Source: an uncultured Ruminococcus sp. (GTDB taxonomy: Bacteria; Bacillota; Clostridia; Oscillospirales; Acutalibacteraceae). From it: 36,231 nucleotides of DNA. The notes beneath the pieces were generated by a model. It saw only the letters and a program-made list of their open reading frames with translations, made no database searches and was not told the DNA's origin. Below, piece after piece: positions 1,184 through 30,938 of this stretch (positions are counted from its first letter, which is position 1; the number at the start of each line of letters is the position of its first letter). Made by a program: the position numbers and the translations under genes. The stretch covers positions 1 through 36,231 of the forward strand of contig CACZCM010000021.1 of assembly GCA_902779615.1 (NCBI GenBank). Reading direction: 5' to 3'.

Positions 1184-1283
1184 CGAAGGGGTGCAGGAGT
1201 GCGGTCTGCCAGTGGCAGACGTTGCCGCAGGCAACAGCACCGACCGAGGAGGCAGCCGAGACCGGCCGGAAAGCCCCCTGCAA
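1184..1283 (+). repeat. Family I dispersed repeat, full-length head
   Basis: An outer stem pairs TGCAGG (1192-1197) with CCTGCA (1277-1282). Inside are hairpin a, GTCTGCC-AGT-GGCAGAC (1204-1220), and hairpin b, GTTGCC-GCA-GGCAAC (1221-1235), then the invariant block GCACCGACCGAGG (1237-1249). The same layout with different but still complementary stems occurs at 26.4 kb and 30.8 kb. It lies between thyX and tmk. An open frame crossing it is an artefact. Confidence 0.8.
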
Positions 1284-1361
1284 AAGACATTAAAGAAGCT
1301 AAAAACTACCGGTTTACCTTAAGTTGTGGAGAGTGTATTTACTATACAAGGTGTTTTGAAT

Positions 1362-2024
1362 ATGAACGGCAGACTGATCGTGATAGAAGGTCTTGACGGC
1401 AGCGGAAAGGCTACGCAGACCGAATTGCTTTACAAATATATTTTAAGTAAGAATATTTACTGCACAAGGCTTTCGTATCCGAATTATGAGAGCGATTCGT
1501 CGGCGCTCGTGAAAATGTATCTGGGCGGCGAGCTGTCAGACAATGCCGAAGGTGTGAGCGCATATGCGGCGTCGGCATTTTATGCGGTGGATCGCTGCGC
1601 CGACTACCTGAAATACCACAAGTCGCGCTATGAAAGCGGCGGGCTGTTCATTTCCGACAGATATGCAACGTCAAACGCTGTCTATCAGACAGCAAAGCTG
1701 CCGAAGGAAAATTGGGACGAGTTTCTCGATTGGCTTGAGGATCTCGAGTATGCGAAGCTTGGCGTGCCGAAGCCCGATGTTGTGATCTATCTGGATATGG
1801 ATATCAATGTGTCGCAGCGGCTGCTTGCAAAGCGTTACAGTGACGGCGGAAGTAAGGATATACACGAGCTTGACACCGGCTTTTTGGAATGCTGCCGTGA
1901 GGCGGCAATGTATTGTGTGAAGCATTACGGCTGGCAGTACATACGCTGCGACAACGGATACGCACCGAGAAGTGTTGAGGATATTTCCGACGATGTTATA
2001 AAAATTGCAAGTAAATATATATGA
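1362..2024 (+). CDS. tmk: Thymidylate kinase
   Basis: This enzyme phosphorylates dTMP to dTDP with ATP in the cytoplasm. The 220-residue product starts MNGRLIVIEGLDGSGKATQ, with the Walker A loop GLDGSGKAT at about residues 10-18. The thymidylate-kinase DRY motif is in FISDRYATSNAVYQ, and a lid-like KRYSDGG segment follows. I chose 1362 because AAGGTG ends 8 nt upstream; an in-frame ATG at 1326 has no comparable ribosome site and adds residues the family lacks. It sits between thyX and a DJ-1-like gene, with 34 nt to the next start, consistent with co-transcription onward to the cyclo-ligase gene. No convincing promoter was found directly upstream. Confidence 0.94.
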   Translation: MNGRLIVIEGLDGSGKATQTELLYKYILSKNIYCTRLSYPNYESDSSALVKMYLGGELSDNAEGVSAYAASAFYAVDRCADYLKYHKSRYESGGLFISDRYATSNAVYQTAKLPKENWDEFLDWLEDLEYAKLGVPKPDVVIYLDMDINVSQRLLAKRYSDGGSKDIHELDTGFLECCREAAMYCVKHYGWQYIRCDNGYAPRSVEDISDDVIKIASKYI

Positions 2025-2058
2025 TACTGAGAATGATATCAAAAACGGAGGTAATAAT

Positions 2059-2598
2059 ATGGTATATGTATTTTTAGCGGACGGATTTGAAGAAACGGAG
2101 GCCATAGCGCCGATCGATATCATGAGGCGCAGCGGCGTTGAGGTGAAGACAGTCGGTATCGGCGGCAAGACCGTTACAAGCTCCCACGGCGTTACTGTGA
2201 CTGCCGATCTGAGCGAGGACGAGGCTGTGTTTGAAGGACTTCAGGGCATTATGCTGCCGGGCGGTATGCCGGGTACGCTTAATCTTGAAGGCAGTGCGAC
2301 CGTTCAGAAATTTATCGATCATGCTGCTGAGAACGGTTTATATATGTGCGCTATTTGCGCCGCTCCGTCGGTTCTCGGTCATAAGGGATTGCTTAAAGGC
2401 AGAAAAGCTACCTGTTTCCCCGGATTCGAGAAAGATCTTATCGGCGCGGAAGTCACGTCGCTGCCCGCTGTTTGTGACGGTAAGGTTATCACCGGAAAAG
2501 GCGCGGGAGCTGCGATCGAGTTTGGCTTGCTTATCAGTGAGAAGCTGTGCGGCAAAGACGTTTCAAAGAAGGTAAGGGAGTCAATGCAATGCCCATAA
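2059..2598 (+). CDS. DJ-1/PfpI (YajL-like) family protein
   Basis: This is a 179-residue class I glutamine-amidotransferase-fold protein of the DJ-1/ThiJ/PfpI family. Members have been assigned chaperone, deglycase or glyoxalase activities; which applies here cannot be read from sequence. The N-terminus VYVFLADGFEETEAIAPIDI holds the conserved acidic residue near positions 12-15. The nucleophile elbow is MCAICAAPSVLG, with Cys100 as the predicted reactive cysteine. The start at 2059 has CGGAGG 8 nt upstream. The gene ends inside the following cyclo-ligase gene (10-nt overlap), so the two are probably translationally coupled. Confidence 0.9.
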   Translation: MVYVFLADGFEETEAIAPIDIMRRSGVEVKTVGIGGKTVTSSHGVTVTADLSEDEAVFEGLQGIMLPGGMPGTLNLEGSATVQKFIDHAAENGLYMCAICAAPSVLGHKGLLKGRKATCFPGFEKDLIGAEVTSLPAVCDGKVITGKGAGAAIEFGLLISEKLCGKDVSKKVRESMQCP

Positions 2599-3197
2599 AT
2601 TATAACAGCGAGATCAAAGCGGAGAAAAACGAACTGCGCAAAACAATGAAAAAGACCCGCAGCGCGCTTGACCGTGTAAAGAAATTCGACTATGACGCAG
2701 AGATCCAGAGCCGTGTGCTTTCGCTAAGAGATTATGCCGGATCGGATATACTGTTTACATATGTGTCGATGGATACCGAGGTTTCTACCCGTGCGCTCAT
2801 CTATGCGGCGTGGGCGAACGGAAAGCGTGTCGCCGTGCCGAAGTGTGATGAGAGCACATCTGAGATGACGTTCTATATTATTACCTCTGTTGACGATCTG
2901 AAGCCCGGGTACTACGGGATAATGGAGCCTGATCCCGAAAAGTGTGAGAGAGTGACGGATTATTCCCACGGATTGTGTGTTGTTCCGGGGCTGAGCTTTG
3001 ACGCGGAGGGTTATCGGTTGGGCTACGGACGAGGCTACTATGATCGGTTCTTAAAGCATTTCAGAGGCGTGTCTGTCGGCTTGTGCTACAGCAGCTATCT
3101 TAAATGGAAGCTGCCGAGAGGCGGCTATGACGTGCCCGTGGATATAATTGCGACCGAGAGGTTTATTCGCAGTACAAACGTCGGCGATAATTCGTAA
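2589..3197 (+). CDS. fthC: 5-formyltetrahydrofolate cyclo-ligase
   Basis: This enzyme converts 5-formyl-THF to 5,10-methenyl-THF with ATP, returning a storage/inhibitory folate to the one-carbon pool. The 202-residue product has the basic N-terminal KNELRKTMKKTRSAL helix, the VAVPKCD strand and the diagnostic GYGRGYYDRFL motif at about residues 145-155. The start at 2589 overlaps the end of the DJ-1-like gene, with AAGGGAG upstream; an in-frame upstream start at 2547 lies deep in that gene and is less likely. With thyX, tmk and folT nearby it forms a folate/thymidylate neighbourhood. The symbol follows common usage; fau and ygfA are synonyms. Confidence 0.93.
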   Translation: MPINYNSEIKAEKNELRKTMKKTRSALDRVKKFDYDAEIQSRVLSLRDYAGSDILFTYVSMDTEVSTRALIYAAWANGKRVAVPKCDESTSEMTFYIITSVDDLKPGYYGIMEPDPEKCERVTDYSHGLCVVPGLSFDAEGYRLGYGRGYYDRFLKHFRGVSVGLCYSSYLKWKLPRGGYDVPVDIIATERFIRSTNVGDNS

Positions 3198-3297
3198 TAC
3201 GCAGGGGTGGGAATACCTGCGGGGAAACGTCCAACGACGAACGCTCAAGCCTACGGCTTGTTTCTGCTTGTTGAGAGCAGAGCTTTTAAATTCACAG
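3198..3297 (+). repeat. Family II dispersed repeat
   Basis: The copy begins at the cyclo-ligase stop with CGCAGG...CCTGCG, which can pair. Next are CAAGCC-TAC-GGCTTG (3246-3260) and a CTGCTTGTTGAGAGCAG hairpin (3264-3280), then GCTTTTAA. Order and loops match the copies at 13.4, 25.6 and 35.1 kb. It occupies the gap between the cyclo-ligase gene and mltG. Confidence 0.75.
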
Positions 3298-3354
3298 CGG
3301 TAAAATGCCGTATAAGCCAAGTATCAAATGAACAATGGAAAAGGACATTCGGAT

Positions 3355-4884
3355 ATGAGTGATGAAAAATCAAATCAGGAGCTTGAAAAAAAACTTGAGG
3401 CTAATCGACGAAAAAAGATCGACAGCTTCAAGCTGAATATCAGCGATATTGACGACGACGCTGCGGACGACATCAGCTTTCCCGAAGAGGAGAGCCAAAC
3501 GGAGCTTTTGTTTGAGGAGGAAGCGCATATTCCCTCCCGTCTTGATGACAAGCAGGAGCAGCTGTCTGCAAGGGAAGAGGAAAAACGCCGCAGAAAAGCG
3601 CTGAAGGCCGAGAAAAAGCGCAAAAAGAAAAAGGCGAAGAAAAACGGCTGCGTTTTCAGAGTGGTGTGGCTTGTGATGGTGCTTATCCTTGGCATCGTTA
3701 CGGCTGAATTCCTGCTCGTGGGCATAAACGACCTTCTCGGGCGCAACAGGGGCGATGAAGAAAAGATCATCATCAAGGTCCCGAAGGACGCAAACTGCAG
3801 CGAGATCGCCCAAATATTGAGCGAGAACGGCGTCATCAGCAACGAAAGCTACTTTAAGCTTTATACCAAGCTGACGAAGGACGACGATATAATCTTTACT
3901 CAGGGTTCATATGAAATGACCAACAATATGGACTACGAGGCGATCATCAATTATCTTCAGTCAAACGCAAACCGTGTCGATACCGTTGAGATCCGTTTTA
4001 CCGAGGGTATGACCATACTGGAGATCGCCGACAAGCTCGACGAGAATAAGGTATGCAATAAAGACGAGTTCCTTGAACTGTGCAATTCCGATAATTTCGA
4101 CGAGGACTTTACATTCCTTGCAAACGACCGCCCGAAGGTCGATAAAACGTACTACAAGCTTGAGGGCTATCTGTTCCCCGATACGTATGAGTTCTATCAG
4201 GGCGAGAGCGCGGAAACGTCTATCTATCGATTCCTCAATAACTTTGAAACACGTATGTACTATACAAAGCAGCGTATTGAGATCGTTGAGGACAAGACGG
4301 AAGACGACGGTCCGAAGATCAAATATGACGAGTATGGCAATGTTATGTATGATGAAGACGGCAACGTTATCTACGAAACCGATACCGACAAGCGTAAGAC
4401 TAAGAAGTACGAGAAGCTGACGCTTGAGGAGCAGGCGAAGAAACAGGGCATGACGATGGACGAGCTGATCACGCTTGCGTCAATGATCCAGTCGGAGGCG
4501 GCAAGCGCAGAGGATATGTACGATGTATCGTCCGTATTCCACAATCGTCTTGATACGCTCAAGAAAGACGGCTACACTGATTTCGGCGAGTATATCAGAG
4601 GTATGCTCGACTCGGATCCTACGATGTACTATCCCTACAAAAAGAACACGCTGCCCGATAAGAATTTCGAGAGCACCTACAACACCTACAAAACGGCAGG
4701 GCTGCCCGCCGGAGCAGTCTGCAACCCTGGTATGGAGGCGATCAAAGCGGCGCTCTATCCGAACGACACGAATTACTACTACTTCTGCCACAAGGCGGCA
4801 ACCGATACCGAGCCTGCCGTTGCATATTATGCGTCAACATCGGGTGACCATCAGTATAATCTGTCCCGTGCAGGACTTCAGTAA
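3355..4884 (+). CDS. mltG: Endolytic peptidoglycan transglycosylase MltG
   Basis: MltG cleaves nascent glycan strands within the chain at the cytoplasmic membrane and sets strand length. The 509-residue product has a highly charged cytoplasmic N-terminus (about 1-97, ending in a Lys-rich patch), one membrane segment at about 100-124 and an extracellular YceG-like domain. LEGYLFPDTYEF (about 269-280) and LASMIQSEAA with the predicted catalytic Glu381 are followed by VFHNRL and the closing LPAGAVCNPGMEAIKAAL. An Asp/Glu/Lys-rich stretch at about 311-352, just before the catalytic region, looks like an insertion relative to E. coli MltG. The start at 3355 has AAAAGGA at a good distance; an in-frame ATG at 3328 does not. 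Confidence 0.93.
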   Translation: MSDEKSNQELEKKLEANRRKKIDSFKLNISDIDDDAADDISFPEEESQTELLFEEEAHIPSRLDDKQEQLSAREEEKRRRKALKAEKKRKKKKAKKNGCVFRVVWLVMVLILGIVTAEFLLVGINDLLGRNRGDEEKIIIKVPKDANCSEIAQILSENGVISNESYFKLYTKLTKDDDIIFTQGSYEMTNNMDYEAIINYLQSNANRVDTVEIRFTEGMTILEIADKLDENKVCNKDEFLELCNSDNFDEDFTFLANDRPKVDKTYYKLEGYLFPDTYEFYQGESAETSIYRFLNNFETRMYYTKQRIEIVEDKTEDDGPKIKYDEYGNVMYDEDGNVIYETDTDKRKTKKYEKLTLEEQAKKQGMTMDELITLASMIQSEAASAEDMYDVSSVFHNRLDTLKKDGYTDFGEYIRGMLDSDPTMYYPYKKNTLPDKNFESTYNTYKTAGLPAGAVCNPGMEAIKAALYPNDTNYYYFCHKAATDTEPAVAYYASTSGDHQYNLSRAGLQ

Positions 4885-4899
4885 GCGTCGGAGGAATAT

Positions 4900-6114
4900 A
4901 TGTCTAATAAATTTGAAGTCCTGTCGCCTGCGGGCGATCCGGAATGCCTGAAGGCGGCGGTCAATTTTGGAGCAGACGCAGTTTACCTTGCGGGGACTCA
5001 GTTCGGAATGCGGACTGCGTCAAAGAATTTCAGCGAAGAACAGTTGGCAGAGGGAATAGAATATGCCCATGCTCACGGCGTTGGGGTGCACATCACCTGC
5101 AATGTGCTGCCGAGAAGCAGCGAGCTGGACGAATTGCCACGGTTTCTTTCTATGGCTCAGAGTCTTGGCGCAGACGCTTTCATAATAGCCGATCTCGGCG
5201 TTCTGGAGATCGCTAAGCAGAATGCGCCGAAGGTTCAGATACACGCTTCAACTCAGATGGGGATCGTCAATTATGCTGCGGCAAACGCTCTTCACAAAAT
5301 GGGCGTGTCAAGAGTTGTGCTTGCGCGGGAGCTGTCAATTCCCGAGATAGCAGAGATACGCCGCAGAACCTCGCCCGAACTTGAAATAGAAACATTTGTC
5401 CACGGATCGATGTGTATATCGTATTCGGGCAGATGTCTTATTTCGGAGTACATGACGGGACGTGACGCAAACAGAGGCGACTGCGCACAGCCCTGCCGCT
5501 GGAAGTACCACCTTTACGAAGAGAACAGAGAAGGACAGTATTTCCCGGTCGAGGAGGAAAACGGCGGTACGTTCTTATACAACAGCCGAGATTTGTGTAT
5601 GATAGAGCATTTGCCGGAGCTGCTTGAAACGGGCATCAAGAGCTTGAAGATCGAAGGGCGCGCGAAGTCGGCGTACTATACCTCGGTGATTACCCACGCT
5701 TATGCGGGAGCCGTGCGTGAATATGAAAAAGACCCGGCGGGGTACAAGCTTCCCGAATGGGCGCTCAGCGAAATTTACAAGGTGTCTCACCGAGAGTATT
5801 CCACGGGATTTTTCATGGGTACTCCGCCCGGACAAAACACAAAGAGCGGCGGGTATATCCGTGATTACGATGTGGCGGCAATGTGCGAAGAAGGCGGAGA
5901 TCCGTGCGTGATAACTCAGCGCAACAAATTTTTCAAGGGCGATACGCTTGACGTTTTGCCGCCGAATGCGCCCTCGTTTGAAACGACTGTTCTGAAGCTG
6001 ACGAACGAACAGGGAGAAGAGGTCGAATCCACTCCGCACGCCATGGAAAGGCTGACTCTGAAGGCCAGCCTTCCGATACCTACAGGCGCTTTTTTAAGGA
6101 AGAAACGGCAGTGA
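4900..6114 (+). CDS. U32 peptidase-family RNA hydroxylation protein
   Basis: Members of this family (YegQ/TrhP, RlhA, YrrO) are named after a collagenase but act in prephenate-dependent hydroxylation of tRNA U34 or 23S rRNA. The 404-residue product begins EVLSPAGDPECLKAAVNFGA, the usual barrel start. It carries the family block HGSMCISYSGRCL followed by GDCAQPCRW, giving Cys172, 179, 195 and 199 as candidate Fe-S ligands. SLKIEGRAKSAYY lies further on, with a small C-terminal domain after it. GGAGGA lies just upstream of the ATG, 15 nt after mltG, so the two are likely co-transcribed. Which RNA is modified cannot be decided from sequence. Confidence 0.88.
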   Translation: MSNKFEVLSPAGDPECLKAAVNFGADAVYLAGTQFGMRTASKNFSEEQLAEGIEYAHAHGVGVHITCNVLPRSSELDELPRFLSMAQSLGADAFIIADLGVLEIAKQNAPKVQIHASTQMGIVNYAAANALHKMGVSRVVLARELSIPEIAEIRRRTSPELEIETFVHGSMCISYSGRCLISEYMTGRDANRGDCAQPCRWKYHLYEENREGQYFPVEEENGGTFLYNSRDLCMIEHLPELLETGIKSLKIEGRAKSAYYTSVITHAYAGAVREYEKDPAGYKLPEWALSEIYKVSHREYSTGFFMGTPPGQNTKSGGYIRDYDVAAMCEEGGDPCVITQRNKFFKGDTLDVLPPNAPSFETTVLKLTNEQGEEVESTPHAMERLTLKASLPIPTGAFLRKKRQ

Positions 6115-6148
6115 CGGGCAGATCTCGGGCGAGTACAATATACATTTT

Positions 6149-6184
6149 AAGGGACGCTTTTATTTGGAGCGTCCCTTCTTTCAA
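6149..6184 (+). terminator. Rho-independent terminator after the U32 gene
   Basis: A perfect 9-bp stem, AAGGGACGC (6149-6157) with GCGTCCCTT (6169-6177), is followed by a T-rich CTTTC tract. It sits 35 bp past the stop codon and closes the thyX-to-U32 region. Confidence 0.8.
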
Positions 6185-6258
6185 AATGATTCACGGGCTG
6201 TTTTGAACACGGAAATAAATTTTTAAAATCTTGTCATACAATTTTATCTTTTTTTGAT

Positions 6259-6372
6259 ACCGAAGGGGCGCGGGGGAGACCGGAAAGCTCCTGCATTTTG
6301 CTTTAAATGCAAGTAAAATGTAAGAAAAAAGATTCAATAATATTTCTTTAAAAGAAAGTTGATTTTCGTGTG
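6259..6372 (+). repeat. Family I dispersed repeat, short form
   Basis: A short head, GCGGGGGAGACCGGAAAGC then TCCTGC, can fold on itself. It is followed by the AT-rich tail that is identical over 68 bp to bases 26-93. The GCACCGACCGA block and the two inner hairpins of the long form are absent. It lies directly after the U32 terminator. Confidence 0.8.
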
Positions 6373-6374
6373 TT

Positions 6375-6497
6375 TTGAAATATTACTATTGCAAAGATCC
6401 CCTCAAAAACTTTGAAGCTTTTTCGTTGGAGAAGATAGATGGAAAAACAAGCGGAACGGCAGCTCTGTTAGAGTTACTGAACAAAGTCATAAAATGA
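6375..6497 (+). pseudogene. Possible short coding remnant (41 codons)
   Basis: A frame opening at TTG 6375, directly after the repeat tail, reads to a TGA at 6495 and ends ...FSLEKIDGKTSGTAALLELL then NKVIK. The composition looks protein-like, but there is no ATG and no ribosome site, and the repeat abuts its 5' side. It could be the C-terminal end of a gene whose front was replaced by the repeat, or chance. I do not recognise the family. Confidence 0.25.
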
Positions 6498-6531
6498 AGG
6501 TCAAGAGTCACGTTTAAAATAATTTCAGGAG

Positions 6532-6804
6532 ATGATTTCTACGAAAGCATATTCGTATCAAACATATGGAACATGCGCGAAAAAAATAGATTTCTGCATT
6601 GACGAGGGTAAACTGCGCTGCGTCAGGTTTTTTGGCGGCTGCCCCGGAAACACCTTGGCGATCAGCAAACTGTTGGAGGGGGTCGATGCCCAAAAAGCTG
6701 TTGATATCCTCAAGGGCAACGATTGCGGCGGCAAAGGCACTTCCTGCGCCGATCAGCTCGCAAGAGCTGTAGAAGAGGCGCTCGGCACGTGTGCGGATAG
6801 ATAA
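6532..6804 (+). CDS. TSCPD domain-containing small protein
   Basis: This is a 90-residue protein made up almost entirely of a TSCPD domain, of the short stand-alone type common in Firmicutes. The same domain occurs at the C-terminus of some ribonucleotide reductases; the stand-alone protein's function is unknown. Cysteines lie in YGTCAKKIDF, GGCPGNTLAISKLLEG and CGGKGTSCADQLARAV, the last containing the domain's name motif. The start is uncertain: AGGAG (6527-6531) touches the ATG at 6532 with no spacer, so translation may begin a few codons later, for example at ATT 6535. Starting there would still keep the whole domain. Confidence 0.85.
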   Translation: MISTKAYSYQTYGTCAKKIDFCIDEGKLRCVRFFGGCPGNTLAISKLLEGVDAQKAVDILKGNDCGGKGTSCADQLARAVEEALGTCADR

Positions 6805-7047
6805 AGCTTGGCAAAAAGCTTTATACTGCGGCAGAGTTTATTTCAGTGGGCAAAATTTGGTTAGTGTAAAATTATTGTATGCATACAAAACAAGATAACA
6901 TAATACTAGGGTAAAGTAACGTGACTGCCGGTGCTTATAAAGCAGACGCGCCCGCCGCGTCGGACTGTGCGGCGAAAAAGTATTGTAAACGAAAAAGCTG
7001 AACCGCGTATTGTCTGCAGGCGCCTGCCTGCCAAAATTTGCAGCATC
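6805..7047 (+). other. Intergenic region without recognised gene
   Basis: A small ATAAAGCTT...AAGCTTTAT inverted repeat (about 6801-6827) without a T-run follows the TSCPD stop and may be a weak terminator. At 7011-7032 a GCAGGCG-rich stretch resembles the hairpin of family III. I see no open frame with a ribosome site. Confidence 0.4.
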
Positions 7048-7076: not shown

Positions 7077-7107
7077 ATTGCTTGTACGGGTTCACCGTAT
7101 GTATCAA

Positions 7108-7216
7108 TAACAGAGTAAAGCATCAAGCGTGCAGTTTACTGCATAGTGTCTGCCGAACGGGGAGTTGTCGGCAGAACGAAATCGTTGCGGTTTGATGCTT
7201 GCATCCCGCTGTTTTT
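7108..7216 (+). ncRNA. Tetrahydrofolate (THF) riboswitch, folT leader
   Basis: The fold matches the THF-I class. P1 pairs AACAG (7109-7113) with CTGTT (7209-7213), and P2 pairs GCATCAA with TTGATGC. P3 pairs TCTGCCGA with TCGGCAGA, with a G-rich loop ACGGGGAGTTG. The J2/1 segment TTGCATCCC can pair with that loop as the class pseudoknot. The 3' side GGTTTGATGCTTGCATCC closely follows the conserved strand of the known class. A short T-run follows P1. It lies between a strong promoter and a folate-transporter gene, as in known examples. THF binding would be expected to lower folT expression. Confidence 0.88.
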
Positions 7217-8210: not shown

Positions 8211-8220
8211 ACATATTATA

Positions 8221-8526
8221 GATCGTGGGCGGCGCATTACGACCGCCTCTGCTAAATATTTTAAATGCAATGACAGGGTAAAAGACCTTGGGTTTAACTT
8301 TCAGAGAGCCGTCGGGCGGTGTAAGACGGCAGTGACCCTCGAGTATAGCTCACCCTCGAGCAGCTGACTGAAATGAGTTTTTACTCGGAGTAGGAATGAC
8401 GGATCCTCACCGTTACAGGAGGTTGACGTGTTTGCGTTGAAAGAGTGGGTTTTTTATAACCAACAAAAGTGGTACCGCGGAGTTTAGCCTTCGTCTTTTG
8501 GAATACAAAAGGCGAGGGCTTTTTAG
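8221..8526 (+). ncRNA. T-box leader, probably leucine-specific
   Basis: The leader has the T-box hallmarks. An AGAGAGCC Stem I segment is followed by a GTCG/GGTGTAAGACGGC apical arm. The T-box proper is AAAAGTGGTACCGCGG (8465-8480), and a terminator follows. The bulge UGGU pairs with an ACCA tRNA end, fitting the A discriminator of tRNA-Leu. After the apical arm the sequence ACCCTCGAG supplies CUC, a leucine codon, as likely specifier. CUC recurs nearby, so its exact position is not settled. Uncharged tRNA-Leu should stabilise the antiterminator and switch on leuA. Confidence 0.93.
8486..8525 (+). terminator. T-box terminator stem
   Basis: AGCCTTCGTCTTTT (from 8486) pairs with the ACAAAAGGCGAGGGCT arm, followed by a T-run (8520-8524). 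The 5' part of the stem is competed for by the antiterminator formed with the T-box sequence just upstream. Confidence 0.9.
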
Positions 8527-23775: not shown

Positions 23776-25119
23776 ATGGCAAAAAGCAAAAGTGTATTTG
23801 TGTGTTCGCAGTGCGGATACGAAAGCCCGAAATGGTACGGAAAATGCCCCGGCTGCGGCGAATGGAACACAATGGAGGAAGAGCTTGCGGCGGCGCCGTC
23901 ATCAAAACAGACAGAAGCCAAACTGCGCACGTCCGACATAAAAAGCAGGGTGCTTAACCTGAAAAGCATCGATACGACCGACGAGATCAGATATAAAACA
24001 AAGATAGGCGAGCTTGACAACGTTTTGGGCGGCGGAATAGTGAAAGGCTCGCTTGTACTGATCGGCGGAGATCCCGGTATCGGAAAATCAACAATACTTC
24101 TTCAGGTGTGTCAGAATCTGGCGCCCGAACTGAACATTTTGTATGTATCGGGAGAAGAATCCCGCCGACAAATAAAGCTGCGTGCTGACAGACTGGACGT
24201 GACGAACGATTTCTTGATACTTGCCGAAACCGATATAGAACTGATCGCCGAACACATTAAAACCGAAAAGCCCGATCTTGTGATAATTGATTCGATACAG
24301 ACGATGAATCTCTCTCAGCTCAGCTCTTCGCCCGGAAGCGTTACTCAGGTCAGGGAGTGTACAAATATGCTGATGCATACGGCAAAGTCGCTGGAAATAC
24401 CGATACTTGTTGTCGGTCATGTCAACAAGGACGGAGCGATCGCAGGACCGAAGGTGCTGGAGCACATTGTGGACGCTGTTTTGTATTTTGAGGGCGACAG
24501 GCAGCTGTCATACAGAATACTGCGTGCCGTCAAGAACCGATTTGGATCAACAAACGAGATAGGCGTGTTTGAGATGACCGACAAAGGACTTTCGGAGGTA
24601 GTAAACCCGTCGCTCGTGTTCCTTTGCGTCACTTGTATTATGGAAGGTTCCCGCCCGATCCTGGCGGAGGTTCAGGCGCTTGCCGTGAATTCGGGCTATG
24701 GAACGGCAAGGCGAATGGCAACGGGTTTTGATTATAACAGAATGAACCTGCTGATCGCAGTTCTCGAGAAAAAGGGCGGGTACTATTTTGCCGGTGCAGA
24801 TACATATGTGAACGTAGTTGGCGGGTTCAAGCTTGACGAGCGGGCTGCCGATCTGTGCGTGGCGATGTCGCTTATCAGCAGTCTGAAGGATTTTACGATC
24901 CCCGACGATGTGATAATTATCGGCGAGGTGGGTCTTGCAGGCGAAATACGAACTGTGTCGCAGATCGGAAAGCGGGTTAACGAGGCTCGGCGGCTTGGCT
25001 TCAAAAAATGCATCGTTCCGTATTACAGTCTGAAATCTATCGGCGAGGACGCAGCTTCGGGAATGGAGATAATCGGCGTGCGGTCGCTTCGACAGGCAGC
25101 GGCGGCGATAACCGCGTAG
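23776..25119 (+). CDS. radA: DNA repair protein RadA
   Basis: RadA is a RecA-like ATPase and helicase that processes recombination branches. The 447-residue product has the N-terminal zinc finger (Cys10, 13, 24 and 27: CSQC...CPGC) and Walker A GGDPGIGKST (about 97-106). The RadA-specific KNRFG motif is in RAVKNRFGSTNEIGVFEM, and a C-terminal Lon-protease-like domain is present (from about 290, containing VNVVGGFKLDERAADL). GGAAAGG lies about 9 nt before ATG 23776. Length and motifs are those of the normal full protein. Confidence 0.97.
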   Translation: MAKSKSVFVCSQCGYESPKWYGKCPGCGEWNTMEEELAAAPSSKQTEAKLRTSDIKSRVLNLKSIDTTDEIRYKTKIGELDNVLGGGIVKGSLVLIGGDPGIGKSTILLQVCQNLAPELNILYVSGEESRRQIKLRADRLDVTNDFLILAETDIELIAEHIKTEKPDLVIIDSIQTMNLSQLSSSPGSVTQVRECTNMLMHTAKSLEIPILVVGHVNKDGAIAGPKVLEHIVDAVLYFEGDRQLSYRILRAVKNRFGSTNEIGVFEMTDKGLSEVVNPSLVFLCVTCIMEGSRPILAEVQALAVNSGYGTARRMATGFDYNRMNLLIAVLEKKGGYYFAGADTYVNVVGGFKLDERAADLCVAMSLISSLKDFTIPDDVIIIGEVGLAGEIRTVSQIGKRVNEARRLGFKKCIVPYYSLKSIGEDAASGMEIIGVRSLRQAAAAITA

Positions 25120-25135
25120 GAGATGTCCGCCGGTT

Positions 25136-25195
25136 TAAGGCAGCGGGGGATATCCAATGTTCAGTGGGGGGTAAATCCCATTTGCACTAACTTAA
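25136..25195 (+). repeat. Family II repeat fragment
   Basis: GGGGGATATCC...GTTCAGTGGGGGG...AAATCCCATTTG parallels GGGTGATATCCC...TTCAGTGTGG...AAATCCCCGG of the copy at 25.6 kb. The 3' hairpins of the element are absent and a family I element begins a few bases later, so this may be a copy interrupted or truncated by that insertion. Confidence 0.5.
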
Positions 25196-25212
25196 GTCCA
25201 ATAGAGCTTAGT

Positions 25213-25440
25213 TTAAAGTTTTTGCCCCGCTTTTTCAAAAAGCGGGCAGGGTGCAGGGACGGAGGCTTGCTCCAATGTCTCGCCTGACGGCTCGGTCGGT
25301 GCTTCTGCTGTGCAGAGGTCTCCACCTCTGACCGTCCTTAGGGATACAGTTTTCGACGCGGGCACAAAATTTCAAGATTTCTATAAGATTTGTGCGCGTA
25401 CTCCCTGTTGGCGCTTGCCGACCGGAGACCCGCGCCCCTT
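25213..25440 (-). repeat. Family I repeat, inverted and expanded
   Basis: On the minus strand the order is a GGGCGCGGGTCTCCGG head, then hairpin a, CAGAGGT...ACCTCTG (25313-25330 on the plus strand), and hairpin b, TCTGC-ACA-GCAGA (25304-25316). Then come the invariant GCACCGACCGA (plus 25292-25302), a CCCGCTTTTTGAAAAAGCGGG stem and AAAACTTT. Relative to the copy at 30.8 kb it carries about 90 extra bases in the head (about 25331-25420), including a GCACAAA...TTTGTGC pairing. Confidence 0.75.
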
Positions 25441-25484
25441 TGCAAGGGTGAATTCCAAAATAATCCGGTGGATTGTTTTGGAGG

Positions 25485-25514
25485 AGGGGACGCTTTGCGT
25501 GATGCGCGTCCCCT
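25485..25514 (+). other. Long perfect hairpin in repeat-rich gap
   Basis: AGGGGACGC (25485-25493) pairs perfectly with GCGTCCCCT (25506-25514). No T-run follows on either strand, so a terminator is unlikely. It lies between family I and family II elements and may belong to a further repeat. Confidence 0.5.
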
Positions 25515-25573
25515 ACTAACGACAAGAACAAGTTTCCCTTACCGCCCCAAGGCGACGCTAAAAGTCTTGAGTT

Positions 25574-25675
25574 AATGACATTGGGTGATATCCCACATTC
25601 AGTGTGGTTTCAAATCCCCGGTGAACGTACAAGCTTGCGGCTTGTGTCTGCTTGTTGAAAGCAGAACTTTTAAGC
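25574..25675 (+). repeat. Family II dispersed repeat
   Basis: TTCAGTGTGG...CCGGTGAA can pair in part. ACAAGC-TTGCG-GCTTGT (from 25629) and CTGCTT-GTTG-AAAGCAG follow, then AACTTTTAA. This is the same order as at 13.4 kb, with a variant upper stem. Confidence 0.8.
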
Positions 25676-26142
25676 TGAGATACCATGATTTCCAGTAAAT
25701 GGGAAAACCACCTGTGTGCACCAGAAAAGAATTACAAAACTGTTTTGTGCGAAGCTATTGAATTATTGACGTCAATAGGATATACTAATTTACAGAAATA
25801 AAACATCGGGATCGATTTGAGCTGATCCGGCTGATGTATTTTGGGCGCGCTGACGGTACACTGTTTCATCAGATCAGTTTCGTGATCGGACTGTGTGATA
25901 GGCAGCTTGGTCTTGTTTGTTTTTCATTAGAATTATCTATGGAAAAGCGGCGGCGCATATGCGTCTTTGTTTTTCACATGATATTGGAGTATTCCTCAAT
26001 TTTCAGTATATATCAAAGCGTGGAGGTGTCCTGTAAGGTGCGATTGCTTACAGGACATCACGTTTTATGTAAAGTCAATATGCAGCGATCGTCACTATTG
26101 TTCGAACGAAATAAGGCGCTTTTAGTACGATAGCATTATGTA
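25676..26142. other. Intergenic region without recognised gene
   Basis: There is one perfect 11-bp hairpin, TGTCCTGTAAG (26027-26037) with CTTACAGGACA (26047-26057), followed by TCACGTTTTATG, which could end an unknown short plus-strand transcript. A 99-codon open frame from 25834 has no ribosome site and no protein-like pattern. A vestigial gene cannot be excluded. Confidence 0.4.
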
Positions 26143-26173
26143 AAAACAGGGAGTTCGCAAGAAGCGAACTCCC
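26143..26173 (-). terminator. Terminator of the tRNA-Arg gene
   Basis: On the minus strand, GGGAGTTCGC (plus 26164-26173) pairs with GCGAACTCCC (plus 26149-26158), then TGTTTTTAC. It begins about 12 bp past the tRNA 3' end. Confidence 0.9.
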
Positions 26174-26185
26174 TTATATCGTTAG

Positions 26186-26259
26186 CGCGCCAAAAGGGAT
26201 TCGAACCCCCGACCTTCCCCTTAGGAGGGGGACGCTCTATCCAGCTGAGCTATTGGCGC
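26186..26259 (-). tRNA. tRNA-Arg (anticodon CCT)
   Basis: A complete 74-nt cloverleaf. The acceptor stem is GCGCCAA/TTGGCGC and the D stem GCTC/GAGC. The anticodon stem is TCCCC/GGGGA with loop CTCCTAA, giving anticodon CCT (plus 26223-26225), which reads AGG. The variable loop is AGGTC, and the T loop TTCGAAT sits on a stem with two G-T pairs. The discriminator is G, and CCA is not encoded. It has its own promoter and terminator and is a single gene, not part of a cluster. Confidence 0.97.
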
Positions 26260-26304
26260 ATAGACATATTCTGCGCAGGGTAAAATACCCTGTACAGCTT
26301 TTTC

Positions 26305-26333
26305 ATTATATCACAAAAATTATTCGCTGTCAA
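26305..26333 (-). promoter_or_regulatory. Sigma-A promoter of tRNA-Arg
   Basis: On the minus strand, TTGACA (plus 26328-26333) and TATAAT (plus 26305-26310) are both perfect consensus and 17 bp apart, as expected for a strong stable-RNA promoter. A GTACAGGGTA...TACCCTG pairing lies between it and the tRNA. Confidence 0.93.
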
Positions 26334-26394
26334 GGAAAATGATAAAGTTATCTATGGCTTTTGAACGAGTAAAAAACTATTAATCAAAAGCTGC

Positions 26395-26500
26395 CGAGGG
26401 TGTGGGGTGCGGTCTGCCGGTTGCAGACGTTGCCTCAGACAACAGCACCGACCGAGGCTGCAGGTGAGACTGCAGCCCCACAAAGCAGCTAAAGGCAAGC
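26395..26500 (+). repeat. Family I dispersed repeat
   Basis: The outer stem TGTGGGG (26401-26407) pairs with CCCCACA (26476-26482). Hairpin a is GTCTGC...GCAGAC, hairpin b is GTTG...CAAC, and AGCACCGACCGAGG follows. The outer stem sequence is wholly different from the 1.2-kb copy, yet still complementary. Confidence 0.8.
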
Positions 26501-26812
26501 AAAAAATAAGAAATAGAAAAAGGATAGCAAGCGAAGCAACAAATTGTAACCGGCGTTAACAAAAAAGCAGGCACAAAAATATGCCGAACGTATGGAGAAT
26601 AACAGCTGAGTTCACAATTTGTTTACTCATTCAAAAACCCCGTAAAGGTATCCGCGATTTTTGAATTGGCTTTTGATTGAGTAAAATTATTGTGAACAAA
26701 GCGTTTTATAAGAGATGCTCACGCTGACCATGCCGCAATTCATAAATTATGCAATGACGAAATTCGATATTTTATAATTGTCTACAATCTTTTTCCTTTT
26801 GTTGAATTTGGC
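26501..26812. other. AT-rich intergenic region
   Basis: This is the decayed tail of the family I element followed by AT-rich DNA. I see no gene, terminator or known RNA before the promoter at 26.81 kb. Confidence 0.4.
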
Positions 26813-26841
26813 TTGACTAAAATTTTTTACTGTGCTATGAT
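26813..26841 (+). promoter_or_regulatory. Promoter of the amino-acid ABC operon
   Basis: TTGACT (26813-26818) and TATGAT (26836-26841) are 17 bp apart. The transcript would have a leader of about 110 nt. Confidence 0.75.
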
Positions 26842-26867
26842 AATATGGTCAGTTTGTATAATTTTGT

Positions 26868-26931
26868 AATGGGTGTTTAGCGCTGCCGATTCTGCCGCAG
26901 CCGCTTTGCATTTTGTATTTCTGCACCCATT
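26868..26931 (+). promoter_or_regulatory. Leader hairpin before the amino-acid ABC operon
   Basis: AATGGGTG (26868-26875) pairs perfectly with CACCCATT (26924-26931), enclosing an inner GCTGC...GCAGC pairing. The stem ends 9 nt before the AAGGAGG ribosome site. It could influence translation or mRNA stability. I do not recognise it as a known riboswitch. Confidence 0.5.
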
Positions 26932-26956
26932 GGTGTTCTAAGGAGGAACAATTAAA

Positions 26957-27787
26957 ATGAAAAAGTTTAAGAAGATCGCTGCACTCGTTTGCGCTGCCGC
27001 TATGGTTTGTGCTTTTGCTGCCTGCGGCGAGAAGGAAAACGCTTCCAATACTCCCGCTTCAAACGGCGCAGCTACTCCCGCTGCTACTTCCGATACAGCT
27101 GCAGCCGATATTAATTATACGGTTGACGGCAAGCTCACTATGGGCACAAACGCCGAGTTTGAGCCGTATGAGTTCCATGAAGGCGGCGAGATCGTCGGTA
27201 TCGACGCAGAGGTTGCTGCGCTTATCGCAGAGAAGCTTGGCGTGGAGCTTGAGATCAAAGATATGGAGTTCGATTCGATCATCGGCGCAGTTCAGACCGG
27301 TTCTGTTGACATCGGTATGGCAGGCATGAGCGTAACCGAGGACAGACTCAAGACGGTTGACTTCACAGACACATACACAACAGCCGCTCAGGTTATTATT
27401 GTTAAGGAAGACAGCACGGTTGCTTCGATAGATGACCTCAAAGACAAGACTGTCGGCGTTCAGGAGAGCACAACGGGCGACATGAGCGTTAGCGAGGATC
27501 TCGGCGAGGATCACGTAAAGAGATACAACAAAGGCTCCGACGCCGTGTCTGCTCTAAAATCGGGCGCAGTTGACGCGGTAGTTATCGACGGTGAACCTGC
27601 AAAGGCTTTTGTTGCTCAGAATGAGGGACTCAAGATCCTCGAAACGACATATGCCGAAGAGGAGTATGCTATTGCAGTCAACAAAGACAACGCAGCTTTG
27701 ACAGAGGCTATCAACGGAATTCTCAAGGAGCTGACAGAAGACGGTTCGATCGAGAAAATCACCGCAAAGTATATCCCTGCCGAATAA
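26957..27787 (+). CDS. Amino-acid ABC transporter substrate-binding lipoprotein
   Basis: This is an extracellular family-3 solute-binding protein for polar or charged amino acids. The 276-residue product has a lipoprotein signal with Cys23 (VCAFAACGEK) and an Ala/Thr/Ser-rich linker (to about residue 50). The bilobed binding domain includes KLTMGTNAEFEPYEFHEGGE, IVGIDAEVAALIAEKLGVEL and GMSVTEDRLKTVDFTDTY. The conserved lobe-2 motif VGVQESTTGDM is present. AAGGAGG lies 11 nt before the ATG. It is followed by a matching permease and ATPase. The exact amino acid (Gln, Arg, His or Cys-type) cannot be decided. Confidence 0.95.
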   Translation: MKKFKKIAALVCAAAMVCAFAACGEKENASNTPASNGAATPAATSDTAAADINYTVDGKLTMGTNAEFEPYEFHEGGEIVGIDAEVAALIAEKLGVELEIKDMEFDSIIGAVQTGSVDIGMAGMSVTEDRLKTVDFTDTYTTAAQVIIVKEDSTVASIDDLKDKTVGVQESTTGDMSVSEDLGEDHVKRYNKGSDAVSALKSGAVDAVVIDGEPAKAFVAQNEGLKILETTYAEEEYAIAVNKDNAALTEAINGILKELTEDGSIEKITAKYIPAE

Positions 27788-27865
27788 GAACGATCGGGCG
27801 GCGTGCCGGCGCTGAAAAGCAGACACGCCGCTGTTTGGTTGGTAGTTTTAAATGGGGGCATTTCA

Positions 27866-28591
27866 ATGACATTATTTTTTGCCGCAGAGGACTCGGGCTT
27901 TTTTGAAGATCTCCGTGAACGGTTCATTAACAATTTCATCACGGGAGATCGCTGGAAATATCTGGCAAACGGCCTCGGAGTGACGATGAAGATCACCTTG
28001 GGCGCCGTCATAATCGGCGTGATCCTTGGCTTTCTGGTGGCGGCTGTGAGGGCAACTCACGATAAGACGGGGAAGCTGAGGTTTCTGAATGCGGTCGCAA
28101 AGATCTATCTGACCGTCATAAGGGGTACTCCTGTTGTTGTTCAGCTGCTTATTACATATTTTGTTATACTTGCGCCGATGGGCGTTGATGAGATAATCGT
28201 TGCGATATTTGCCTTCGGCATAAATTCGGGCGCTTATGTCGCCGAGATCGTCAGGGCGGGCATTATGTCGGTCGACAACGGTCAGTTTGAGGCGGGGCGT
28301 TCGCTTGGGTTCAACTACGCGCAAACGATGTGGTATGTTATACTGCCTCAGGCATTCAAGAATATCCTGCCTGCGCTGTGCAACGAATTTATTGTACTTC
28401 TGAAAGAAACCTCTGTATCGGGTTACATAGCCCTGCAGGATCTGACGAAGGGCGGATATATTATTGTAGGAAGAACGTTCGATGCGTTCATGCCGCTGAT
28501 ATCCGTAGCGATAATATATCTTGTTATCGTAATGATACTTACAAAGCTTGTTGCGCTGCTTGAAAGGAGGCTGAGGAACAGTGAGCACTGA
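27866..28591 (+). CDS. Amino-acid ABC transporter permease
   Basis: This is a HisM/GlnP-type membrane subunit. The 241-residue product has an amphipathic N-terminus and about five membrane segments. The family's [12 protein letters not shown] motif is present, as is the ATPase-docking EAA loop, [20 protein letters not shown] then [11 protein letters not shown] chose ATG 27866, 7 nt after a GGGGG stretch; upstream in-frame extension to 27803 lacks a ribosome site. It starts 78 nt after the binding-protein gene and overlaps the ATPase gene by 11 nt. Only one permease gene is present, so it likely acts as a homodimer. Confidence 0.94.
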
Positions 28592-29438
28592 TTTGAAAAA
28601 AGAGAGATCCTCAGCAAAGCCGACCAAAGACGAGAACGTTCGGCAGCAGAAATCGCCCGAAATGAAGCCCGCAGAGCACATTAGTATTGAAGGCAGCGAG
28701 ATGACCGAAAGTCTGATCATGGTTCGTAACCTTGAGAAACACTATGGCGAACTTCATGCGCTCGACGGAGTGAGCATCGACATCGAAAAAGGCGAAGTCG
28801 CCGTTGTCATCGGGCCGTCCGGATCAGGTAAATCAACGTTTCTGAGGTCATTGAATCTACTCGAGATGCCAACGTCGGGAGAAATAATATTTGAAGGCGT
28901 AAATATGTTGGACAAGGGAGTAAACATCAATACCCACCGTCAAAAGATGGGAATGGTGTTTCAGCACTTCAACCTGTTTCCGCACATGACGATCATGAAG
29001 AATGTTACGATCGCTCCGATAAAGCTGCTCGGGAAGACGAAGGAAGAGGCGGAGGCGAAAGCGCACGAGCTGCTGAAGAGAGTCGGACTTGACGACAGGG
29101 CAGACGCATATCCGTCGCAGCTTTCTGGCGGACAAAAGCAGCGAATAGCGATAGTCAGAGCACTGTGTATGGAGCCTGATGTAATGCTTTTTGATGAGCC
29201 GACCTCGGCGCTTGACCCCGAGATGGTGGGCGAGGTGCTGGAGGTTATGAAGGCGCTTGCGAAGGATGGCATGACGATGGTAGTCGTGACTCACGAGATG
29301 GGTTTCGCAAGAGAAGTTGCCGACAGGGTAGTGTTCATGGCAGACGGAAAAATACTGGAAACCGGAACTCCCGGCGAGATTTTTACAGCGCCGAAAACAG
29401 AGAAAGCGAAGCAGTTTTTGGCAAGTGTGCTGAAATGA
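28581..29438 (+). CDS. Amino-acid ABC transporter ATP-binding protein
   Basis: This is a GlnQ/HisP-type ATPase that powers uptake with the preceding permease. It contains Walker [10 protein letters not shown], the signature LSGGQKQR, Walker [15 protein letters not shown] and a switch His in [14 protein letters not shown]. From GTG 28581 the product has 285 residues, including about 40 hydrophilic residues ahead of the usual [10 protein letters not shown] start. AAAGGAGG and GAGGA just upstream support GTG; ATG 28701 would give a normal-length protein of 245 residues but has only a weak site. The start codon is therefore uncertain; the function is not. Confidence 0.94.
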
Positions 29439-29464
29439 TTCCCTAAATACTACATTGGATACAG

Positions 29465-29498
29465 GCAGGCGATGATATCAGTCGCCTGCTTTTTGTTT
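29465..29498 (+). terminator. Terminator of the amino-acid ABC operon
   Basis: GCAGGCGA (29465-29472) pairs with TCGCCTGC (29482-29489), then a T-run with one G interruption. It lies 27 bp past the ATPase stop. Confidence 0.92.
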
Positions 29499-29611
29499 TT
29501 CTGTCGCCGGGGCGGGCGAGGGGCTTTTGCCGTGCCGCAAACGTATCAAAAAACGCACAAAAGGGACGGCAAGACGCCAATCTCACTTAATTGCGGACTG
29601 TGAAATTCACA

Positions 29612-30730
29612 TTAATCAGCCGTGCTTTTCAGTACCGCCGCAACCACTTTCCCTAGATAGCTGCCCGTTCGTACTGCCTCCTCGTGAGTGTTTGCGTCTG
29701 TTCCGATTTCGATCAGCAGCGAGCCGGGCGCCAGATTCATATTGTACATAAAATTGCCGAAATACAGCGGTCTTGTCATTCCCGGATATAGCTCCTCGGC
29801 CTTGCTTTGAAGCTTTACCGCAAGGCTCATGTTTTGTTCCCAGCAGTCAAAATCATAATATCCGTAGTTGTCGTTGCCGCACATTATCATGATCTGAGCA
29901 GCCTTTTCGCCGCCGAAGACAAAGGTCGGCTTGATTTTTTCGTTTTCGTCCGTTGTTATGCTGTCACGATGAATGTCAAGGATTATCTTTATGCTCGGGT
30001 ATCTTTCAAGGTAGTTGTTTATTGTTTCCGCGCTGCTGTCGTATGCGCCGAGATACGACGGGTCGTCGTGGTGCTTCAGACTGTGTGCCGCCGTGACGCC
30101 CTCCGCCTTCAGACTCTCTGTTATCGCTTCGCCAACGCTGACAACGTTTTCTCGGTCATCGTCGCTTCTGGGATAAAAGCTTTCGTAATAATAACCCAAG
30201 TCGCTGTCCATGTATGATTCCGTGGCGTGAGTGTGGACTATCAGGACCTGCGGCTCGGCTGTTTCTTCATATTGAAACGGCAGGTCGGCGGTTAAGTATC
30301 CCCTTAGATCGGGAGTCAGATCGGTTGCGTTTTTTACATAAAAATTACCGCAGCTCATGTTTGATTCACGATACAAACTCTCCGTAACGAGGTAGGTGGT
30401 TTCAAAGGTATGATCCGTGTCGGTGTCGGTATCGGTGTCGGTATTGCTTAAATCGGAGCCGGGTGTGTCCGAATCGGAGCTTTTGTCAGAGCTGCTTTTG
30501 TCAGAGCTGCTTTTGTCTGAGTCGTCTTTCGGCTTTGAGTCGGCGGCGCTTCTGTTGAAGCTCGACTGAGTCTGCTTATCGCTCATCGCAAGCCCTGCCG
30601 CAGTTTTTCGGCTGTGCTCCTTTCCGATGAAGCTGTCCACACGCCCTCCAATGCTTATCGTTCCGAAAACCGATATCAGAACAGCTGCAGTCCCGACGGC
30701 TGCGCGGCGTATTTTTTCACTTATTTTCAT
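29612..30730 (-). CDS. spoIIP: Stage II sporulation protein P (SpoIIP)
   Basis: SpoIIP is a peptidoglycan amidase/endopeptidase that works with SpoIID and SpoIIM to dissolve the septal wall during engulfment of the forespore. The 372-residue product has one N-terminal membrane segment (about 10-29). A low-complexity linker is made of Ser/Asp/Lys and alternating Thr-Asp repeats (about 70-110). The zinc amidase domain shows VLIVHTHATESYM, ILDIHRDSI and LLIEIGTDANTHEEAV, the typical SpoIIP motifs. The start at 30730 follows AGGAGTGGGAA. An in-frame extension to 30829 is read from a family I repeat and is rejected. It supports an endospore-forming lineage. Confidence 0.94.
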   Translation of the reverse strand: MKISEKIRRAAVGTAAVLISVFGTISIGGRVDSFIGKEHSRKTAAGLAMSDKQTQSSFNRSAADSKPKDDSDKSSSDKSSSDKSSDSDTPGSDLSNTDTDTDTDTDHTFETTYLVTESLYRESNMSCGNFYVKNATDLTPDLRGYLTADLPFQYEETAEPQVLIVHTHATESYMDSDLGYYYESFYPRSDDDRENVVSVGEAITESLKAEGVTAAHSLKHHDDPSYLGAYDSSAETINNYLERYPSIKIILDIHRDSITTDENEKIKPTFVFGGEKAAQIMIMCGNDNYGYYDFDCWEQNMSLAVKLQSKAEELYPGMTRPLYFGNFMYNMNLAPGSLLIEIGTDANTHEEAVRTGSYLGKVVAAVLKSTAD

Positions 30731-30783
30731 TATTGTTCCCACTCCTAACATTTGCTGCTGTACTTGGATAGATCGTTCGGCGA

Positions 30784-30938
30784 CCAAGGGTGCGGGTCTC
30801 CGGGGGAGACCTCTGCAAAGCAGAAGCACCGACCGACGCGGCAGCGAAGACCGCTGTCCTTGGATCCTGCAAGCCTTTTGAAAAAGGCTTGAGCGAAAAC
30901 TTTTTTATTCTTTCAAAGAAAGTTAATTTCCGTGGGAT
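30784..30938 (+). repeat. Family I dispersed repeat with tail
   Basis: The outer stem is CCAAGG (30784-30789) with CCTTGG (30858-30863). Hairpin a is GGTCTCC-GGG-GGAGACC (30795-30811) and hairpin b is TCTGC-AAA-GCAGA (30812-30824). GCACCGACCGA follows from 30826. Then come an AAGCCTTTT...AAAAGGCTT stem and a tail ending AAAGTTAATTTCCGTGG, like those at 0.1 and 6.3 kb. It lies between the divergent spoIIP and dnaD-like genes. Confidence 0.85.

Follow-up and report, generated by a model that had tools for sequence, protein, structure and literature searches.

A very small folded repeat, probably a mobile DNA element, of Clostridia and their phages

A 36,231-nt stretch of DNA from an uncultured Ruminococcus sp. 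(GenBank assembly GCA_902779615.1, contig CACZCM010000021.1; here, the window) carries copies of a repeat of about 65 nt. In our judgment, this is probably a tiny non-autonomous element, found in a group of Clostridia and in their phages, that is mobilized in the form of a folded DNA strand. The window is one entire contig (C21) of a 2.8-Mb genome (G000; here, the own genome) assembled in 281 contigs, and this genome holds more than 100 copies. The stems of the element covary, its ends are sharp, the same sites are found filled and empty, and the element lies in frame in two phage genes.

Copy number in the window and the genome

The 11-mer GCACCGACCGA has four exact occurrences in the window; the number is still four when one mismatch is allowed, compared with an expectation of 0.67, and none of 100 shuffles reached it. 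The genome has 82 exact copies of this word and none of the reversed word. A covariance model (R1), built from 24 rows that include window copies 1 and 2 and not copy 3 (Table 1), gives 117 matches in the genome at an E value of ≤0.001 (115 in a run that scored fewer candidates). Among the matches listed, one of 78 distinct GCACCGACCGA rows, L051, has no other feature of the element and looks like chance. Because many copies lie at contig ends (15 of the 82 exact copies are within 100 nt of one, e.g., on C26, C81, C86, C87, C134, C190, and C250), copy counts from assemblies like that of G000 are probably underestimates; the repeat interrupts assemblies.

Anatomy and fold

Copies from many genomes share one order of parts, namely, GG, GTGC, G, hairpin a, hairpin b, A, GCACC, GACCGA, hairpin c, and GAGAC. 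Hairpin a has 7 pairs and a 3-nt loop, hairpin b has about 5 to 10 pairs, and hairpin c has 3 pairs around GGCA (NNN-GGCA-NNN). Most elements are 62 to 67 nt long, and 9 of 146 copies are, by length, a 53-nt form without hairpin b. Hairpins a and b occur in a few linked types. Pairing of GGTGC with GCACC (stem P2) places hairpins a and b on a junction. When single DNA strands were folded, this junction appeared in four of the four standard copies tried and the full consensus structure in two of them (window copy 3 and one phage copy); the fold of window copy 1 has the two-hairpin junction and lacks hairpin c.

The original prediction, made from the window sequence, described three covarying stems (an outer stem and hairpins a and b) around an invariant single-stranded block. 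Hairpins a and b pair as claimed, with letters that differ on both arms, while hairpin c had not been listed and the outer stem turned out to be host sequence (see below). The block is partly stem, since its GCACC can pair with the upstream GGTGC, and it is not invariant, since GCACC varies among 190 distinct 3' halves. In these halves, P2 reads GGTGC/GCACC in 135, GGCGC/GCGCC in 4, and GGGAC/GTCCC in 1, and the 50 that have no exact partner include truncated copies, near-matches, and chance rows. The further alternatives GGCTC/GAGCC (two rows) and GGTTC/GAACC (one row) were dropped when a stricter recount did not confirm them.

Covariation

Changes on both sides of a pair occur in 13 of 21 pairs in the 24-row alignment. 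A larger set, drawn from 100 loci of public genomes, comprises 111 matches (98 distinct rows); here, 98.0% of the cells are paired, and changes on both sides occur in 16 of 21 pairs and 215 cells. The covariation score of these rows is 0.305, compared with 0.087 (standard deviation, 0.005) for shuffles; 0 of 500 shuffles reached it, and slid partners gave at most 0.044. Since these rows are related to each other and were themselves fitted to the model, the shuffle outcome is not to be read as a probability. It is chiefly hairpins a, b, and c that carry the support, P2 being nearly constant, and the unpaired GACCGA and GAGAC stay constant while the stem letters change. G-U pairs make up 19 of 1838 paired cells (1%) in the element and 13 of 155 (8%) in tRNAs found at the same loci, whose acceptor and T stems were counted in a small comparison using 13 of 25 distinct tRNA sequences, as the other 12 misfit the simple position rule applied.

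It had been suggested in the original prediction that the fold is under selection, perhaps as a hairpin recognized by a mobilizing enzyme, and the strong covariation over the 98 distinct rows, obtained by what is in substance the proposed covariation check but without R-scape, fits this idea. The original prediction could name no known element with this layout, and no Rfam family reached its gathering score at the copies tested. In the window, Rfam release 15 yielded only a T-box leader, a tetrahydrofolate (THF) riboswitch, and a tRNA gene, none of them at a copy, and at six copy-bearing loci searched at an E value of up to 5, it yielded two small nucleolar RNA models far below gathering.

Ends, target, and host hairpins

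Directly upstream of GTGC, the 97 copies from other genomes have a G in 92 cases, and one position further out they have a G in 83. Information amounts to 0.53 bit at position -3, at most 0.2 bit further out, and at most 0.32 bit after GAGAC, and because of this drop in the flanks we place the ends of the element at GTGC and GAGAC. No terminal inverted repeat was seen, as the end GTGC.. is not the inverted form of the end ..GAGAC, and comparisons of filled with empty sites revealed no target-site duplication. At the cleanest sites, the element takes the place of the base after GG (GG-N becomes GG-GTGC..GAGAC). One base stands at the place of the element in 10 of 25 empty sites (A in eight and G in two), so that one-base replacement is observed as a tendency.

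Inside the own genome the flanks repeat, in that the element is carried by a few families of host hairpins, and these are the outer stems of the original prediction. The three outer stems of the window are three different host hairpins rather than covarying positions within a single element, and related forms of them occur without the core: CCAAGG-A-CGCTGTCCTTGG in L055 of the same genome and GTGGGG/CCCCAC in L104 of a relative; a TATAGAGG host is empty in L048 and L063. With such empty relatives at hand, and with flanks that are not conserved in the 97 copies from other genomes, the outer stem was rejected as a part of the element. Left and right host halves are re-assorted between copies in the own genome. 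Strict targeting of hairpins was also rejected, because flank complementarity is above shuffled pairing yet confined to a minority of copies: at least 6 pairs are formed in 17 of the 97 other-genome copies (100 shuffles: mean, 2.9; maximum, 9) and in 11 of 41 own copies (shuffles: mean, 2.2; maximum, 6).

Filled and empty sites and insertions in phage genes

Of 145 copies, 25 have an empty counterpart among the loci compared; 10 of these 25 belong to the 41 copies from the own genome. Mobility is supported because filled and empty forms of the same site exist, and the clearest case is a phage gene. The phage contig L254 (present again as L274) has the element inside a gene whose homolog in L253 matches the C5-cytosine methylase family (PF00145). 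The site is empty in L275 and L276 (ATGGG-A-CAGAACGC) and filled in L274 (ATGGG-[64 nt]-CAGAACGC), and over their longest segments the flanks of L274 are 92.1% identical to L275 (1395 nt) and 93.2% identical to L276 (648 nt). The insertion adds a net 63 nt and leaves the frame open. The same site is filled in L082, from genome G003, with a net 66 nt compared with L284. A second site in the methyltransferase gene is filled in L082 and L253 and empty in L274 to L276. Among the matches listed, the first site is filled in 1 of 21 loci.

A second phage gene (phrog_2443, annotated as "amidoligase enzyme") is filled in L347 and L218. Long alignments with the protein of L347 were obtained for 72 loci; a single clean gap of 21 residues appears in 31 of these, and the others are either filled or gapped differently within a variable linker. 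For the 82 loci of this gene, the matches listed comprise 32 empty and 2 filled rows. We accept six coding instances, at three sites in two phage genes, all in frame and on the sense strand with a net 63 or 66 nt. These in-frame copies in phage genes illustrate how proteins can gain peptide segments from repeats. Longer open frames run across some other copies, in part on the other strand; the eight tested had no Pfam match, which proves nothing either way. All six frames are open in 52% of 135 copies, compared with 8.8% of base-shuffled copies, a difference that composition and relatedness may explain.

Most copies lie outside genes. Between co-directional genes, 25 copies run with and 31 against the gene direction; this is a rough count from a mechanical caller of open reading frames (ORFs), in which 25 of 146 copies fell "inside" ORFs, several of them clearly spurious, and 43 had no near ORF on at least one side.

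Distribution

R1 matches are present in 15 of 22 genomes of the genus, with 1 to 115 copies each, and in 17 of 40 relatives searched; seven of the 22, among them G004, G009, G010, and G011, have no match at an E value of up to 0.001. The exact 11-mer is found in 16 of the 22, as G018 has the word without a model match. An exact pattern search retrieved 27 of 300 genomes of the same family, spread over 19 of 135 genera, and 2 of 398 genomes drawn across the phylum, the own genome included in both. A scan identified at least 111 stretches, and among the matches listed, 80 come, by name, from assemblies of Ruminococcus, Ruminococcaceae, and other Clostridia, as well as "Candidatus Acutalibacter," Caccousia, Eubacterium coprostanoligenes ATCC 51222, and one contig binned as Alistipes. 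We take the host group of the element to be the Oscillospirales (Clostridia).

Phage contigs also carry the element. The element pattern that includes hairpin c is present in six viral stretches, one of which, L249, has no left half and looks like chance; in a set of 15 viral stretches, at least seven (L249, L362, L364, L366, L367, L369, and L370) have no left half and look like chance. In L354, which comes from G539, a genome outside the family but within the class, two element doublets (positions ~1490 to 1815) lie in what seems, by eye, to be decayed tRNA-Pro sequence near an intact tRNA-Pro, and their target resembles AGG-T-CGCAGG of the tRNA variable region.

Copies and other features of the window

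Four full copies had been predicted in the window. The three on the forward strand are whole (Table 1), copy 1 with a GTCTGCC-type hairpin a and a GTTGCC-type hairpin b and copy 3 with the 3' end GAAGAC in place of GAGAC. The fourth, placed at 25213 on the reverse strand, is truncated at its 5' end: it keeps hairpin b, GCACC, GACCGA, hairpin c, and GAGAC, while its left part is another repeat; 15 R1 positions around hairpin a are covered by 2 bases. The same left sequence is also fused to other element copies, in L004 and L086. The two short forms predicted at positions 1 and 6259 are host sequence instead; both were read by eye as host-hairpin sequence (..GACCGGAAAGC..), and the second folds no better than shuffles (z, +1.34).

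Table 1. Positions of the element copies, host hairpins, and other features in the window
Feature	Position	Strand	Basis
Copy 1, whole (64-nt core GTGC..GAGAC plus flanking bases)	1197..1263	+	R1, 84.0 bits; R1 building row
Host hairpin of copy 1, 5' arm TGCAGG, outside the element	1192..1197	+	Sequence; no conservation beyond the element ends in 97 other-genome copies
Host hairpin of copy 1, 3' arm CCTGCA	1277..1282	+	Sequence
Copy 2, whole (64-nt core)	26405..26471	+	R1, 75.1 bits; R1 building row
Host hairpin of copy 2, GTGGGG/CCCCAC	26402-26407 and 26476-26481	+	Related hairpin empty in L104 of a relative
Copy 3, whole, 62-nt type	30788..30852	+	R1, 77.9 bits; not an R1 building row
Host hairpin of copy 3, CCAAGG/CCTTGG	30784-30789 and 30858-30863	+	One copy empty in L055, same genome
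Copy 4, 5'-truncated	25276..25327	-	R1, 38.9 bits
Host-hairpin remnant, element absent	1..23	+	No R1 match at E up to 10; sequence by eye
Host-type sequence, element absent	6259..6296	+	No R1 match at E up to 10; sequence by eye
T-box leader	8261-8501		Rfam scan
THF riboswitch	7109-7213		Rfam scan
tRNA gene	26186-26259		Rfam scan

Nested, tandem, and fused copies

A 20-nt hairpin unit (GGTTGGGAACCGTCCCCGAC or GGCTGGGAGCCGTCCCCGAC) is present as an insert following GG in the hairpin a and hairpin c loops and, reversed, in hairpin b, and it also forms a tandem array; examples are L108, L126, and L129. The word GTCCCCGACGG of this unit is found at 52 positions of the genome exactly and at 92 with one mismatch allowed, compared with 47 for the reversed word. 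Some elements look shortened, the part between two 20-nt inserts being gone. Head-to-tail tandem copies of the element itself, with a period of ~60 nt, exist in L217, L185, and L084. Truncated copies that start at hairpin a are fused to similar sequence, TTAAGTTnnTGACATT or near it, in several genomes (L027, L037, L055, L102, L160, and L226).

Search for a mobilizing enzyme

The own genome has no match to Y1_Tnp (PF01797; RAYT), and none over the cutoff was found in the three genomes of the genus next richest in copies, G007, G015, and G002 (the last being 77% complete). Over the 22 genus genomes, Y1_Tnp exceeds the cutoff in three, of which G003 has 17 copies of the element and G009 and G010 have none. 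No reverse transcriptase (RVT_1), as a group II intron or retroelement would need, is present in G000; it was found in 2 of the 22 genomes, G010 and G011, both copy-free. The DEDD transposase (PF01548) expected for an IS110 passenger is absent from G000 and over the cutoff in 3 of the 22, and the TnpB-type protein (PF07282) of TnpB-associated elements is absent from G000 and over the cutoff in 6 of the 22, which have 0 to 19 copies. G007, G015, and G002 have no IS110- or TnpB-type match over the cutoff, and G015 has one TnpB match below it. RAYT, reverse transcriptase, IS110, and TnpB types were thus rejected as movers, being absent from the genome and not tracking copy number in the genus. 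A longer autonomous form, sought through separated left and right halves in the loci compared, was not found either; inspection by eye gave only truncated, re-joined, or chance rows. The mover may have been lost, may reside on phages or plasmids, may belong to a family that was not searched, or may be an enzyme of host repair or replication.

Proposed mechanism and alternative explanations

In the mechanism that we propose, a single strand would fold into the P2 junction with hairpins a and b, followed by GACCGA, hairpin c with its GGCA loop, and GAGAC, and this folded DNA strand would be the substrate of an enzyme supplied in trans. The enzyme would read GACCGA, the GGCA loop, and GAGAC, and the element would be set in 3' of GG. 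Because the unpaired parts and not the stem letters would be read, the stems would be free to change as long as they stay paired. We infer a folded DNA substrate because the arms change together while the unpaired parts stay constant, because G-U pairs are rare, as expected if pairing matters in DNA, because copies between co-directional genes run in both directions (by the rough count above), and because no target duplication is seen. A more far-reaching proposal, which we put forward tentatively and hold to be somewhat doubtful, is that the element has a transposition route of its own, in which an enzyme outside the Y1, reverse transcriptase, IS110, and TnpB types recognizes a folded DNA strand of ~63 nt by its unpaired GACCGA, GGCA, and GAGAC rather than by its stems and inserts it after GG in place of one base, across a bacterial family and its phages, the element being able to lodge in working genes as a 21- or 22-residue peptide.

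Several observations weigh against movement as a folded DNA strand. P2 has less support than hairpins a to c, as only 5 of the 140 P2 stems with exact pairing depart from GGTGC/GCACC and 50 of the 190 rows are without an exact partner. The DNA fold of window copy 2 shows the junction, but its stability is no better than that of shuffles (z, -0.51). The one-base rule is clean in only the 10 of 25 empty sites given above; in the two where N is G, plain insertion fits equally well, and the remaining empty sites differ by a few bases or gaps. All six coding instances are on the sense strand, which an RNA route predicts equally. Finally, no mobilizing enzyme was found with the Y1, RVT_1, IS110, and TnpB models, and other recombinase and transposase families were not searched.

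A structured RNA (a small RNA, a leader, or a terminator-like element) kept by selection on the RNA, with copies spread by duplication, would account for the strong covariation, the constant GACCGA and GAGAC, and the sense strand of the coding instances. Against such an RNA, no Rfam family was found at the copies tested, the copies show no preferred orientation to neighboring genes (with rough ORF calls), the same phage site is filled or empty in near relatives, and G-U pairs are at 1%; furthermore, the element is dispensable, because 7 of 22 genus genomes have no match. Movement by way of reverse-transcribed RNA is disfavored because RVT_1 is absent here and was found only in two copy-free genomes of the genus. 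A DNA element fits better than an RNA, because G-U pairs are at 1%, compared with 8% in the small tRNA comparison, and because intergenic copies show no strand preference; we regard the RNA explanation as unlikely.

It is also conceivable that the repeat is mobile but its fold is unused, the arms matching by mutual correction (template switching or quasi-palindrome repair). This would explain why G-U and other one-sided changes are rare beside the 215 two-sided cells, why hairpins a and b come in a few linked types, and why other small hairpins are inserted in the loops of the element. It would not explain why unpaired parts stay constant while stems change or why the three hairpins stand in the same order in different genera, and local correction alone would not keep P2 paired over 30 to 40 nt, so that we give this explanation a small chance. 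Composite repeats, made of host hairpin and core, might instead multiply by recombination between repeats with the core as a passenger, as the long flanks of a few host types shared by many own-genome copies and the re-assorted halves would suggest; this is improbable, given that the flanks of the 97 other-genome copies share nothing beyond 1 to 3 bases and that the core also lies in phage genes, away from hosts of this kind. A polymorphism by itself does not tell gain from loss, and the empty sites could in principle be losses by precise excision of an older element. We consider this highly improbable, because empty is the rule among homologs, both at the first methyltransferase site and in the second phage gene, and because an ordinary codon is kept at the empty sites.

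Comparison with known systems

The element works like small palindromic mobile repeats, such as Rickettsia palindromic elements (RPEs), REPINs, and small dispersed repeats, and the full set of features tested for any one known system was not found in it. A description of this repeat was not found in the titles and abstract beginnings listed from the open-licence PubMed Central (PMC) literature, and a full-text search with three element strings gave unrelated papers only. According to PMC10969869, RPEs are small self-folding dispersed repeats of ~150 bp in Rickettsia, in ten families, whose copies can lie within protein genes and be read in frame. Our element is alike in being small, self-folding, dispersed, and inserted in frame in protein genes (here, three sites in two phage genes); it differs in its length of ~65 nt, its three unlike hairpins, and its occurrence in Clostridia and phages. 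REPs and REPINs are portrayed in PMC3116915 as short non-autonomous hairpin DNA that is thought to be moved by a trans-acting enzyme. The present element shares this general nature, but a REPIN consists of two inverted REPs and goes with a RAYT gene, whereas here three unlike hairpins stand in fixed order without an inverted pair, and the own genome and the three next richest of the genus lack Y1_Tnp.

Cyanobacterial small dispersed repeats (Elhai, 2008) are very small and possibly mobile, with a length of about 20 bp, according to PMC2884548, which cites them. The element resembles them in its small size and possible mobility and differs from them in its greater length, its multi-hairpin fold with covariation, and its copies in phages. 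A further likeness is that small dispersed repeats of cyanobacteria are nested in other repeats. BOX, RUP, and SPRITE are interspersed repeats of pneumococcus (PMC3049150). They are similar to the element as interspersed repeats of a Gram-positive genome. RUP has terminal inverted repeats and a target duplication, neither of which is seen here. Miniature inverted-repeat transposable elements have terminal inverted repeats and a target-site duplication as well; both were tested for, and neither was seen in the element. In single-strand transposition of the IS200/IS605 type, a hairpin is recognized and insertion takes place beside a short target word without target duplication. The likeness to this system is in working mode only, as the genome has no Y1 transposase and one target base is apparently replaced at the cleanest sites. 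What is expected of non-autonomous mobile elements in general, presence and absence at matching sites, is seen for L274 compared with L275 and L276 and for 25 of the 145 copies.

Implications

It is rare for a short bacterial repeat to combine covarying stems, copies in phages, and sites that are filled in one close relative and empty in another. The element has defined ends, a target word, and a structure that can be tested by compensating mutations, and because genomes of the genus range from 0 to more than 100 copies, the mover can be sought by genome comparison. If the mover lies outside the families tested here, the element would represent a new way to move very small DNA.

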